From: Coriobacteriia bacterium
Lineage (GTDB): Bacteria > Actinomycetota > Coriobacteriia > Anaerosomatales > JAAXUF01
Assembly (NCBI GenBank): GCA_013336165.1
Contig: JAAXUF010000001.1
Location: 186,001 to 250,000 of the forward strand
Length of the DNA stretch: 64,000 nucleotides
Direction: 5' to 3'
Positions within the stretch are counted from its first letter, which is position 1, and each line of letters opens with the position of its first letter. The position numbers and the translations under genes were made by a program. This document shows, piece after piece, positions 9,423 through 18,540 of the stretch. The notes beneath the pieces are model-generated. The model ran no database searches. It had not been told where the DNA came from and was given only the letters and a program-made list of their open reading frames with translations.

Positions 9423-9560
9423 TTCCTTCATCTTCCAGGCCTTTGTGCAGCCTGCCGAGACTTGGCACCGTACGTCGCTTTTGACGCCGGTTGCCGGGGT
9501 TTCACAGGGCTCGGTCCCTCGACCCGCTGCGATCGAAACACGATCGCCTCTTGATGATAG
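9423..9560 (-). promoter_or_regulatory. SAM-I (S-box) riboswitch of metK
   Basis: Minus-strand reading shows the S-box core in order: ATCAAGAG, GTCGAGGGACC, TGTGAAACCCCGGCAACC, GGTGCCAA, and a closing GATGAAGG. These are the conserved P1, P2, kink-turn, J3/4 and P4 elements. Between AAGAG and the P2 core there is an extra 7-bp hairpin, GCGATCG-TGTTT-CGATCGC, not part of the usual consensus. The aptamer ends about 30 bases before the terminator. Confidence 0.93.
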
Positions 9561-13330: not shown

Positions 13331-13676
13331 GGAGTGGGCCGGGCGGTCGCGCGTCCCTTCGTGGGGCGTGAGGAAAGTCCGGACCCCATAGGGCAGGATG
13401 CCTGCTAACGGCAGGGCGGGGCGACCCGACGGAAAGTGCCACAGAAAAGAAAACTCCCTCGCTTCTAACGCGAGGGAAAAGCTGAAACGGTGCGGTAAGA
13501 GCGCACCAGCGCCGGGGCAACCCGACGGCTTGGCAAACCCCATCCGGAGCAAGGGCAAATAGGAGCGACTAAGACCGGCCCGGTCAACGCTCGGGTATGC
13601 CCGCGAGAGGCCGACGGCGACGTCGGTCCCAGATAGATGATCGTCCACGACAGAATCCGGCTTACAGGCCCACTCC
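13331..13676 (+). ncRNA. rnpB: RNase P RNA, bacterial type A
   Basis: Catalytic RNA that matures tRNA 5' ends. The ends pair (GGAGTGGGCC with GGCCCACTCC). Conserved blocks in order: GAGGAAAGTCCGGAC (CR-I), a GCAGG-rich arm, CGGTGCGGTAAGAGCGCACC, AACCCCATCCGGAGCAAG, GGCCGACGG, and AGATAGATGATCGTC with ACAGAATCCGGCTTAC (CR-V). About 346 bases. It lies head-to-head with glnS, in a neighbourhood of tRNA-related genes. Confidence 0.96.
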
Positions 13677-13704
13677 ACCCACAACCTGTCCGTGCGTTTG
13701 CAGG

Positions 13705-15357: not shown

Positions 15358-16611
15358 ATGAGCGAAACAGTCGACAACTGCGAGTCTACGCCTTGGGAGG
15401 GACGCGCGATCCTGCATGTGGATCTCGATGCGTTCTTCGCGGCCGTAGAGCAGCTCGATCATCCCGAATGGCGCGGCAAACCCGTCATCGTTGGAGGGGA
15501 TTCGCGGAGCCGAGGCGTCGTTTCGACGTGCAGCTACGAGGCGCGCGTCTTCGGCGTTCATTCTGCGATGCCGTCCTCACAGGCCGAGAGGCTCTGTCCG
15601 CAGGCGATCTGGGCCCCTTGCCGTTTTGCTCGCTATCACGAAATATCCCTTGCGGTTCGCGCCATCTTTGCCGAGGAGACTCCTCTTGTGCAACCCGTAT
15701 CGATTGATGAGGCGTATCTCGATGTGACTCCAGGCCGCCATCTCTCTGAACACCCCGTCGCGATCGCTCGACGAATACGATCCAAGGTTGCGGCTCTCGG
15801 AATCACGTGTTCGGTGGGCATCTCCGCGGTCAAGTCCGTCGCCAAGATAGCCAGCGACTACCATAAGCCTGATGGCCTTACGGTCGTGTGCCCGGGCCAC
15901 GAACGGGAGTTCCTCGCGCCGCTCCCCCTTCGAGCGCTGCCTGGGCTGGGTCCCAAGACCGCGAGACGGCTGGAAGGTCTGGGTATCCGCACGCTGGCCG
16001 ACCTAGCGGGTTTGGACGACCTCACGACGATTGAGGTGCTGGGCGCTCACGGATCGGCACTTGTCGTGCGCGCGCGCGGACGAGATTCGCGAGATGTTCA
16101 CGAAAACGATGGCGTGAAGTCTCTCTCAAGCGAGCACACCTTTGCTACCGATGTCCGAAGTCTGGAAGATATCCAGGATGCGTTGCACGCACTGACGGCC
16201 AAAGTGGGACGCCGCCTCCGTCGCAAAGGGCTGGCCGGAAGAACCATCACCGTCAAGCTGCGCTTCTCGGACTTCACGACCAAGACAGTGCGCCGAACGC
16301 TACCGGTCCCCACGGACGACGAGTCCTGCTTCATGCCTGTTGCGCGGGAGTTGCTCGCATCGGCATGGTCGCCGGGAATCGGGCTCAGACTCCTCGGAGT
16401 GGGCCTTTCCGGATTCGACGAGAAAGCGACCCAGCTCAACCTGCTCGAAGGCCTCGGCCACTCGGCGACGGCCGACGAAGCCAGCCCGCGACCTGAACGG
16501 CTGGTTCGAAGCATCGACTCGGTCCGTGACAAGTTTGGCGAGAAGGCGATCCGTTTCGGAAGGGACATGCGAACTCACTCGGCTGCCGAGGATCCTTCCG
16601 AGGACGCATGA
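15358..16611 (+). CDS. dinB: DNA polymerase IV (Y family)
   Basis: Error-prone translesion polymerase. 417 residues. Catalytic residues are in HVDLDAFFAAVEQ (Asp) and SIDEAYLDVT (Asp-Glu); the helix-hairpin-helix LPGLGPKTARRLEGLG and the little-finger domain follow. Near the C-terminus QLNLLEG resembles a beta-clamp binding peptide. Start ATG at 15358. The 3' end overlaps the end of the convergent dtxR-type gene by 37 bases. A LexA box was not evident. Confidence 0.94.
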   Translation: MSETVDNCESTPWEGRAILHVDLDAFFAAVEQLDHPEWRGKPVIVGGDSRSRGVVSTCSYEARVFGVHSAMPSSQAERLCPQAIWAPCRFARYHEISLAVRAIFAEETPLVQPVSIDEAYLDVTPGRHLSEHPVAIARRIRSKVAALGITCSVGISAVKSVAKIASDYHKPDGLTVVCPGHEREFLAPLPLRALPGLGPKTARRLEGLGIRTLADLAGLDDLTTIEVLGAHGSALVVRARGRDSRDVHENDGVKSLSSEHTFATDVRSLEDIQDALHALTAKVGRRLRRKGLAGRTITVKLRFSDFTTKTVRRTLPVPTDDESCFMPVARELLASAWSPGIGLRLLGVGLSGFDEKATQLNLLEGLGHSATADEASPRPERLVRSIDSVRDKFGEKAIRFGRDMRTHSAAEDPSEDA

Positions 16612-17264
16612 GCCGTGTCGCGTGATTCAACGGTAACCAGGCCTGCAACCTCGCAGGACAAGGCGATGCGTTTGCCGCCTATATCGATGCTCAGAGGTCC
16701 GTTGAATGGCGCTCTTTCTGATACCAAGACCGACGTGCCAGGCGTTAATCCCAGTTCACCGAGATAGCCCAAGAGCTCGTCGTTGCTCTCATCAACTCTC
16801 AACACCGTCACTCGCGATCCACTTTCTGCTTCAGACAAGAGGAGACCGGGCACCGTCGTGACACGCCCATCGGCCGAGGGGATGGGGTGACCGTGCGGGC
16901 AAGACTCCGGGTTCTGAAGAAAGCGCTCAAGCGCTTCGAGAACTCGCGGCGAGAGTGCATGCTCAAGCAAACAGGCGTCCTCGTGCGCGACACCCCAGTC
17001 CATGCCGAGCGTGTTCACGAGAAATGCCTCCGCAACGCGATGCCGCCTTACGATGTCAAGAGCCCGTGCGGTCCCCTCGGCCGTGAGTACAACCGCGGTG
17101 CCTGTCCGCGTGATAAGGCCCTGTCCTTCCAGCCGGTGCAATGTCGCAGTGACAGTCGCACCAGAAACGCCAGCCGCCTCCGCAATCTGTGAGGGTTTGA
17201 CACAACCCCGCAGTGACAACTTGTAGACCGTCTCCAAGTACTCTTCGAGAGTGGCTGTAGGCAT
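16575..17264 (-). CDS. DtxR/MntR-family metal-dependent transcription regulator
   Basis: Three parts: winged helix (residues 1-60, with SQIAEAAGVSGATVTATLHRL), metal-binding dimerisation helices (RRHRVAEAFL, AHEDACLLEH), and a C-terminal SH3/FeoA-like domain (LGYLGELGLTPGTSVLVSE). Candidate ligands are Glu8, Glu11, His75, Glu79, His94, Cys98, Glu101 and His102. Glu8 and Glu11 resemble MntR, whereas Cys98 matches the iron-sensing DtxR/IdeR site, so the metal cannot be named. Length 229 fits the DtxR/IdeR subgroup. Its own promoter holds an imperfect palindrome that could be an operator. ATG at 17264 lacks a strong ribosome site. No metal transporter gene is adjacent. Confidence 0.88.
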   Translation of the reverse strand: MPTATLEEYLETVYKLSLRGCVKPSQIAEAAGVSGATVTATLHRLEGQGLITRTGTAVVLTAEGTARALDIVRRHRVAEAFLVNTLGMDWGVAHEDACLLEHALSPRVLEALERFLQNPESCPHGHPIPSADGRVTTVPGLLLSEAESGSRVTVLRVDESNDELLGYLGELGLTPGTSVLVSERAPFNGPLSIDIGGKRIALSCEVAGLVTVESRDTAHASSEGSSAAE

Positions 17265-17340: not shown

Positions 17341-17456
17341 ATGCGGTGATTGTGCTGGTGAGGATAACCGTCAGTACCGTTAATCAGTCTATTGGAACCA
17401 CTGATAGTAAGTCTATGACCGTATGTCAGGAATACCACGATCAACGCAAAATCGCG

Positions 17457-17485
17457 TTGACACAGTCATGAAGTCTGAGTAGAGT
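17457..17485 (+). promoter_or_regulatory. Strong consensus promoter facing away from any protein gene
   Basis: TTGACA, exactly 17 bases, TAGAGT. Transcription on the plus strand would begin near 17491. No plus-strand protein gene follows (queD is on the other strand), so the likely product is an RNA. Confidence 0.7.
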
Positions 17486-17490
17486 CCATC

Positions 17491-17667
17491 TTGTCCCGAG
17501 AGGTCGGACGCAGCGGACTCCGAAAGACGGTTGACCAGCAGCTGCCCGAGAGGGACCCGATGAAGGTGACAAGCCGTGAGGTGGTCACGCTGATACGGGG
17601 CCTTGGAGGTAAGAAACGGAAAACCGTTCCGGTACGAGGAACCCGTCGGCGAGGTCTCTCGGGATTA
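17491..17667 (+). ncRNA. Candidate small structured RNA, family unknown
   Basis: The segment starts at the predicted transcription start and its ends pair: CCCGAGAG (17494-17501) with CTCTCGGG near 17655-17662. Inside, GACGG pairs with CCGTC, GGTGAC with GTCAC, GACCCG with CGGGGCC (one mismatch), and AACGG-AAAA-CCGTT forms a small hairpin. The overall shape is a long rod with internal loops about 175 bases long, the size and plan of 6S RNA, but I could not match conserved 6S bases. CCCGAGAGG occurs twice (17494 and 17544), so alternative pairing is possible. No T-rich terminator is obvious. A 90-codon open frame here has no recognisable protein features. Confidence 0.5.
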
Positions 17668-17701
17668 CTACGTTCTCACACCCGGCTTGCCTGCCATCGT
17701 T

Positions 17702-18067
17702 TCAAGGCCGATACGTCAGCTTGGCGACCGGTGACTCCCATACACTCACTTCGACAACCTTGATCGACGGGTCGACGCGCAAGGCAAGACGCTCGTAGAT
17801 CTCCCGCGCAAGGTTCTCCGCGGTTGGATTCCGGGTGTCAAACGGTGCAACGTCGTTCAGGTACTTGTGGTCGTAGTCTTGCAGTACTCCAGCCAAGTCC
17901 TCTTTGAGACGCTTGAAGTCGTAGACGATTCCTATCTCGTCGAGCGTTTCAGCAGCGATCATGACCTCGATATCCCACGTGTGACCGTGCAACTGCCGAC
18001 ATTCGCCCGGATAGCCGTGCAGCGCGTGGGCGGCGTCGAAATGTGACTTGACCGTGAGTTCGAACAT
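17702..18067 (-). CDS. queD: 6-carboxy-tetrahydropterin synthase (6-pyruvoyl-tetrahydropterin synthase family)
   Basis: Second step of queuosine/7-deazaguanine synthesis. 121 residues. Zinc histidines are in SHFDAAHAL and LHGHTWDIEV; the catalytic Cys is in GECRQLHGH; VYDFKRLKEDL and a late Glu in VSVWESP complete the site. ATG at 18067 (MFELTVKSHF). It is the last gene of the iscR-led run, 20 bases after the RNase H gene. No other queuosine gene (queC, queE, queF) is in the window, so the partner genes are elsewhere. Confidence 0.9.
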   Translation of the reverse strand: MFELTVKSHFDAAHALHGYPGECRQLHGHTWDIEVMIAAETLDEIGIVYDFKRLKEDLAGVLQDYDHKYLNDVAPFDTRNPTAENLAREIYERLALRVDPSIKVVEVSVWESPVAKLTYRP

Positions 18068-18087
18068 GGCAGTCTCAGGCTCGCTTC

Positions 18088-18540
18088 CTAGAACAAGGTT
18101 GGGGCGGAGGAACCGCCGGGGCCGCACGGAGCGTCGCCGACCGTCCCCCGTGAATCCATCGCCGCATTTGCCATCGCGTCTGCTTGGACATTTTGCTCCC
18201 GGCGTACGTGAACCACCTTGGATGAACGAAAGGCTCGCAACAAGGCGGCGGCGCGCACAAAGAGCGGACGCAGGTTCTCATTTCGTACTCGGTACTGACC
18301 GTTGATCTGTTTGACCAGCAGCTCACTGTCCGCGTAGACGGTCACCTGGTCGAAGCCAAGCGCGGCTACATTCTCCAGTCCCCAGATCATCGCCTCATAC
18401 TCGGCAACATTGTTGGTCTGGCTGCCAAGAAACCGACCGCCTCGGCAGATGATTTCGCCGTCGCGCTCGATCACAAACCCGGCGCCGGCTGGTCCCGGAT
18501 TGCCGCGCGAGCCGCCGTCGGTTCGCAGTACCGCGCTCAC
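18088..18540 (-). CDS. Ribonuclease HI-family protein
   Basis: 150 residues with the RNase H fold: TDGGSRGNPGPAGAGFVI (first Asp), NNVAEYEAMIWGLE (Glu), VYADSELLVKQINGQY (Asp) and NVQADAMANAAM (last Asp), a complete D-E-D-D site. It is shorter than E. coli RnhA and lacks its basic handle, like the YpdQ/Rv2228c-type proteins of Gram-positives. GTG start at 18540 overlaps the upstream zinc-ribbon stop by four bases (GTGA), so the genes are translationally coupled. Confidence 0.88.
   Translation of the reverse strand: MSAVLRTDGGSRGNPGPAGAGFVIERDGEIICRGGRFLGSQTNNVAEYEAMIWGLENVAALGFDQVTVYADSELLVKQINGQYRVRNENLRPLFVRAAALLRAFRSSKVVHVRREQNVQADAMANAAMDSRGTVGDAPCGPGGSSAPTLF

Follow-up and report, generated by a model that had tools for sequence, protein, structure and literature searches.

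Positions 17492-17666 on the plus strand of the window (the whole stretch of DNA analysed here, 64,000 nucleotides long) form a well-supported gene whose product is a stand-alone, structured non-coding RNA about 175 bases long. The feature is real: homology, covariation, promoter conservation, and non-coding nature have all been demonstrated. This agrees with the earlier note, which had proposed an orphan structured RNA of this size in this Coriobacteriia genome, matching no known family; homologs and covariation confirm the RNA, and the models of Rfam 15 return no family for it. As judged from sequence, no known family is detectably related, and hence the RNA family itself is new and not described in Rfam. 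No description of this RNA was found in the openly licensed literature. The features referred to below are as follows.

16575-17264, minus strand: divergent neighbour, a DtxR/IdeR-type metal repressor with a FeoA domain (Pfam PF02742, PF04023, PF01325); not part of the RNA
17377-17424, plus strand: CCGTTC-like direct-repeat array with 21-base spacing (CCGTTA at 17377-17382, a weak CCACTG at 17398-17403, CCGTAT at 17419-17424)
17457-17485, plus strand: promoter, with −35 box TTGACA at 17457-17462, a spacer of 17 bases, and −10 box TAGAGT at 17480-17485
17492-17666, plus strand: structured RNA gene, a covariance-model match of 175 bases (R1, 137.9 bits; R2, 130.4 bits)
17492-17505, plus strand: 5′ strand of closing helix P1, 14 pairs
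17522-17526, plus strand: internal-loop strand GAAAG, facing (A)GUA (aligned loop columns)
17531-17546, plus strand: core 5′ strand TTGACCAGCAGCTGCC (family consensus GUACCAGYWGCYGCC)
17575-17580, plus strand: apical hairpin loop C(GUGA)G of GNRA type (sequence and 28-sequence alignment)
17608-17622, plus strand: core 3′ strand GGTAAGAAACGGAAA (family consensus GGYRNGAAACGGGAA)
17631-17634, plus strand: GGTA, the strand opposite GAAAG in its internal loop (family consensus AGUA)
17653-17666, plus strand: 3′ strand of P1, partner of 17492-17505 (covariation alignment)
17667-17678, plus strand: pyrimidine-rich 3′ tail, a possible termination region (tail composition)
17702-18127, minus strand: convergent neighbour queD, 6-pyruvoyl tetrahydropterin synthase family (Pfam PF01242, 5.8e-40)

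The RNA region is covered by an open reading frame of 90 amino acids, for which a Pfam search gave no match. No frame is open through all of 29 homologs, the lengths of which are spread over all three classes modulo 3. With neither a conserved open frame nor a protein match, a protein-coding gene was ruled out; a good protein hit, which the earlier note had named as a refutation, was looked for and not found. The covariance-model search places a single copy in the window's own genome.

Fold, covariation, and conserved core

Folded alone, the sequence has an unremarkable energy (z −0.96, not significant), which was dropped as proof; the case therefore had to rest on relatives. In an alignment of 28 copies made by sequence alone (A1), a rod of 50 pairs shows double-sided changes at 29 pairs, a number reached by 0 of 500 shuffles, with 91.4% of cells in the rod paired as against 80.8% after shuffling; shifting the partner by one column lowers the paired cells to below 50%. 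An independent consensus from RNAalifold contains 43 pairs, 23 of them with double changes. A 102-sequence alignment gives 39 pairs and 798 double-changed cells versus 259 when shuffled, and the nested rod accounts for 90.1% of its cells. Because fitting to the model produced alignments A2, A5, and A6, their pair counts lean towards it.

The RNA is a long, mostly unbranched rod with its ends closed by a 14-bp helix, a fold that is well supported. The pairing ends and nested inner stems described from the single sequence are both recovered, the stems by the double-sided changes and the ends as P1, which is conserved in sequence; at its seventh pair, G-C, A-U, and C-G all occur among homologs. 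Every pair in P3, in P4, and in the helix beyond the core varies with pairing kept. The suggestion that a repeated CCCGAGAGG allows two alternative folds fails, since the second occurrence, present in the window at 17544-17552, is not conserved in relatives.

From the outside in, P1 is followed by a GGA/CGA loop, short helices, the GAAAG/(A)GUA loop, P4, GUA facing GAA, the CC/GG pairs, and a 6×6 loop (AGYWGC/NGAAAY); innermost are a short helix and a variable arm capped by the GNRA hairpin. The core CC/GG pairs and the closing C-G of the apical loop are invariant in the 28-sequence alignment. Among 94 full-length sequences, GUACCAG occurs in 94.7%—the window copy carries the rarer variant UUGACCAG in its place—and GAAANGGRAA in 97.9%. 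The loop columns read GAAAG or GAAAA in 68 of 100, with GUA on the facing strand in 70 of 100. This loop looks like a sarcin-ricin motif, a three-dimensional module predicted here from its loop sequences; the motif is widespread (PMC8450098).

In three loci of one family (L004, L006, and L007), a further hairpin arm, about 30 bases long, is inserted in the core GAAAC/GGGAA strand; this point thus tolerates extension and is useful for tagging the RNA. Resemblances of GUACCAGCAGC to the 530 loop of 16S rRNA and of the RNA tail to the 16S 3′ end are short matches of a kind expected by chance.

Promoter, gene neighbourhood, and distribution

The near-consensus promoter that had been read from the window (TTGACA, 17 bases, TAGAGT) stands: it scores 10 of 12 consensus matches, and one such promoter was found versus 0.3 expected. 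Each of the 16 copies examined from other families has TTGACA without a mismatch and a spacing of 16-18 bases, and in these distant copies the −10 box stops 4-8 bases short of the closing helix. That related genomes should conserve both promoter and stems had been set beforehand as a test of the claim; such conservation was looked for and found.

Further upstream, CCGTTC-like hexamers lie at −80, −59, and −38 from the −35 box in 39, 44, and 39, respectively, of the 69 homolog promoters of the order. Upstream regions in the order contain 188 such hexamers versus 62 after shuffling, and 52 hexamer pairs lie at exactly 21-base spacing. The window's own repeats are degenerate, with two of the three sites kept in weakened form. 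In 20 raiA and 6S promoters sampled from the order, no hexamer pair lies 20-22 bases apart; the absence of the array from these promoters makes specific regulation of the RNA in Anaerosomatales likely, as far as promoter sequence can indicate. A genome-wide scan for other genes under the array, allowing three mismatches, gave no matches above the reversed-pattern control, and hence no regulon is defined; candidate sites elsewhere, inspected as a subset, had no common theme.

At the 3′ end, pyrimidines make up on average 80% of the first 12 tail bases in the order, and T makes up 63% in other families. The tail is weak in the window copy, as is the intrinsic terminator, and no plus-strand terminator was called there by prediction.

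The usual site in the order is between a divergent dtxR-type gene and a convergent queD; of 38 loci, 19 have the DtxR/IdeR-type family upstream and 12 have the queD family downstream. Copies in other families are flanked by different genes on either strand, among them UbiD, CobO, and cation efflux. As neighbours differ between groups, the RNA is its own gene rather than the leader of one gene.

Several further elements were observed in the vicinity. An RNase P RNA gene lies about 0.3-6 kb from the RNA in the window (13331-13680) and in two other families (L147 2726-3167; L148 2521-2978; L235 9007-9381), a proximity that reflects either chance or an old gene neighbourhood. A hairpin of about 45 bases, CCCCCATGGTTAATAGAGGCACGGGTCTCGAGAACCCACTGGGGG, adjoins RNA copies in several families outside the order (L146, L147, L148, L214, L218, L222, L226, L230, and L244), mostly just downstream but upstream in L218; in L146-L148 it has no Rfam match at E ≤ 0.1, and its possible identities are a terminator common to these loci or another orphan RNA. 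The window also contains a SAM riboswitch (S box leader) at 9425-9539 on the minus strand (51.2 bits). The assembly of 28 contigs to which the window belongs yielded no 16S rRNA gene.

Homologs were detected by blastn with a 321-base query in 22 of 41 relatives, and the covariance model R1 matches in 37 of 41. Class-wide, R1 matches 64 of 298 genomes with one to three copies each, all 64 within Anaerosomatales/OPB41, where they make up 64 of the 69 genomes sampled; four of the five members without the RNA are less than 75% complete. Anaerosomatales is an order of Coriobacteriia (PMC9686372). The class-wide search scored few candidates per genome and was therefore repeated with laxer filters, under which the RNA was absent from all 18 genomes sampled elsewhere in the class. 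Beyond the order, a phylum-wide R1 search added 15 genomes. The broader model R2, built by adding these phylum matches, matched 30 of 396 genomes, including families absent from the training set (f74, f89, f92, and f94) at 7.9e-21 to 2.1e-26 or better; one match, in G516 (1.9e-5), is doubtful. Besides the order, the range takes in several deep branches of Actinomycetota. Phages, plasmids, and viral contigs gave no match to the RNA, and pattern matches in Pseudoalteromonas, Edaphobacter, and a Porphyromonadaceae MAG were rejected, R2 being negative in those genomes.

In genomes that hold two copies, the members of the pair belong to different clades (for example, L077 with L083 and L080 with L138), and they are thus old paralogs that have been kept. 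Seven loci (L226, L230, L227, L228, and L244-L246) hold shorter or diverged relatives of about 120-163 bases, which keep the closing helix and have lost much of the core; one has a TTGACA promoter and lies near another copy. They are possibly a variant subfamily.

Proposed function and competing explanations

Taken as a whole, the locus is, with a high degree of confidence, best read as a new-family stand-alone structured RNA, expressed from a sigma-70 promoter with activator repeats and probably acting in trans as a ribonucleoprotein scaffold. We infer from the promoter that the gene is transcribed, in which case synthesis would start about seven bases after the −10 box. In Anaerosomatales, a candidate activator probably binds all three direct repeats, whose 21-base phase puts them on the same side of the DNA, and so would tune synthesis. 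The ends of the transcript would pair in the 14-bp helix, with the remainder forming the long rod and its small, purine-rich, near-invariant internal loops. A docking surface for a protein or larger machine would then be provided by the invariant loops together with the closing helix, whose sequence is conserved, and the transcript is predicted to be stable and abundant. For the ribonucleoprotein step taken alone, we consider the chances about even. It is a more tentative thought that this is an ancient housekeeping-type RNA of Actinomycetota, serving either in an undescribed ribonucleoprotein, as its RNA subunit, or as a regulator that acts on RNA polymerase or the ribosome, which may date from deep branches of the phylum, have been lost in other Coriobacteriia and most well-studied Actinomycetota, and have been duplicated into the kept paralogs of Anaerosomatales.

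Bacillus subtilis has two 6S RNAs, and the RNA could likewise be a second, diverged RNA polymerase-binding RNA, an end-closed rod that mimics promoter DNA. Its similar size, long end helix, own sigma-70 promoter, and old paralogs would all suit such a role, and the earlier note had found its size and shape to suit a 6S-like or other regulatory RNA. The 6S likeness is not supported: at the gathering threshold the 6S model RF00013 has no match in the window, and even E ≤ 10 gives none in the region; the same genome has a 6S RNA of its own (G000:C8:17740-17925) and in 35 of 41 relatives, and the middle of the rod consists of short, sequence-invariant internal loops, covariation supporting helices with small internal loops only and no large single-stranded central bubble of the 6S type. 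We therefore regard this explanation as improbable. The same low credence is due to a base-pairing small RNA, induced by an upstream activator and silencing target mRNAs through an exposed seed; the gene does stand alone and its promoter looks regulated, but nearly all positions lie in covarying helices or small invariant loops, and outside the tails there is no long conserved single-stranded stretch.

The usual position between dtxR and queD in the order could suggest a cis element of a neighbour—a riboswitch, leader, or shared terminator region—yet the divergent dtxR and the convergent queD, as arranged in the window and at most of the order's loci, cannot lie downstream in the same transcript. 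Other families have other neighbours on either strand, second copies are located elsewhere, and no conserved sense-strand position upstream of a gene was found in the window or in the other groups; this explanation is largely refuted. A ribozyme or a stand-alone RNA that senses a ligand could account for internal-loop nucleotides that are near-invariant beyond the needs of pairing, but a mostly unbranched rod with neither a predicted pseudoknot nor a multi-helix core, and without a match among known ribozymes, renders it quite unlikely.

A trans-acting ribonucleoprotein scaffold thus remains our preferred reading. The near-universal presence of the RNA in complete Anaerosomatales genomes, its old paralogs, and its dedicated promoter array together suggest that deep-branching anaerobic Actinomycetota have an RNA-based function not yet described. 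To our knowledge, trans-acting structured RNAs whose range covers many families of one bacterial phylum are few. Two cultured strains of the order exist (PMC9686372), and the RNA is therefore open to experiment.

Comparison with known RNAs

Rfam 15, with 4227 families, served as the reference library. At E ≤ 10 the window's RNA region matched no family apart from one chance-like archaeal-type snoRNA match (18.8 bits, cut-off 40); 20 homolog loci gave no match at E ≤ 1, and 16 distant loci returned solely RNase P genes nearby. The class A RNase P model (RF00010) has no match at 17492-17666, nor does the raiA motif/ModT model (RF03072) match the region, and the bacterial SRP model (RF00169) has none in the window or region. 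Separate raiA (G000:C4:191168-191412) and canonical SRP (G000:C15:14836-14931) RNAs are present in the same genome; identity with 6S, SRP, RNase P, or raiA RNA was rejected, each being found elsewhere in that genome.

A separate raiA RNA was found in 20 of 22 carriers tested, and 23 of 30 carriers of the RNA also have raiA. Co-occurrence was set aside as a link: raiA is far broader, being present in sampled Coriobacteriia outside the order that lack the rod-shaped RNA, and both distributions are confounded by phylogeny.

The RNA shares with 6S RNA its size, a rod closed by paired ends, and its own promoter, and differs from it in having no match to the 6S model and no large central bubble. The raiA/ModT RNA, also found in Actinomycetota, likewise stands alone, is some 200 bases long and structured, and has a sigma-A promoter of its own and no fixed neighbour; ModT is very abundant, about level with housekeeping RNAs, and acts in trans (PMC11706538). 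It has eight helices and two pseudoknots (PMC11706538, PMC11751092), whereas the RNA described here is a rod; that architecture was not found in a non-exhaustive search for pseudoknots, and the nested rod fits the great majority of alignment cells. Bacterial SRP RNA is likewise a rod with conserved purine-rich internal loops, which in SRP dock protein, but its conserved sequences differ from those found here. As a broader kind, the stand-alone structured RNA already has company in 6S and raiA/ModT.
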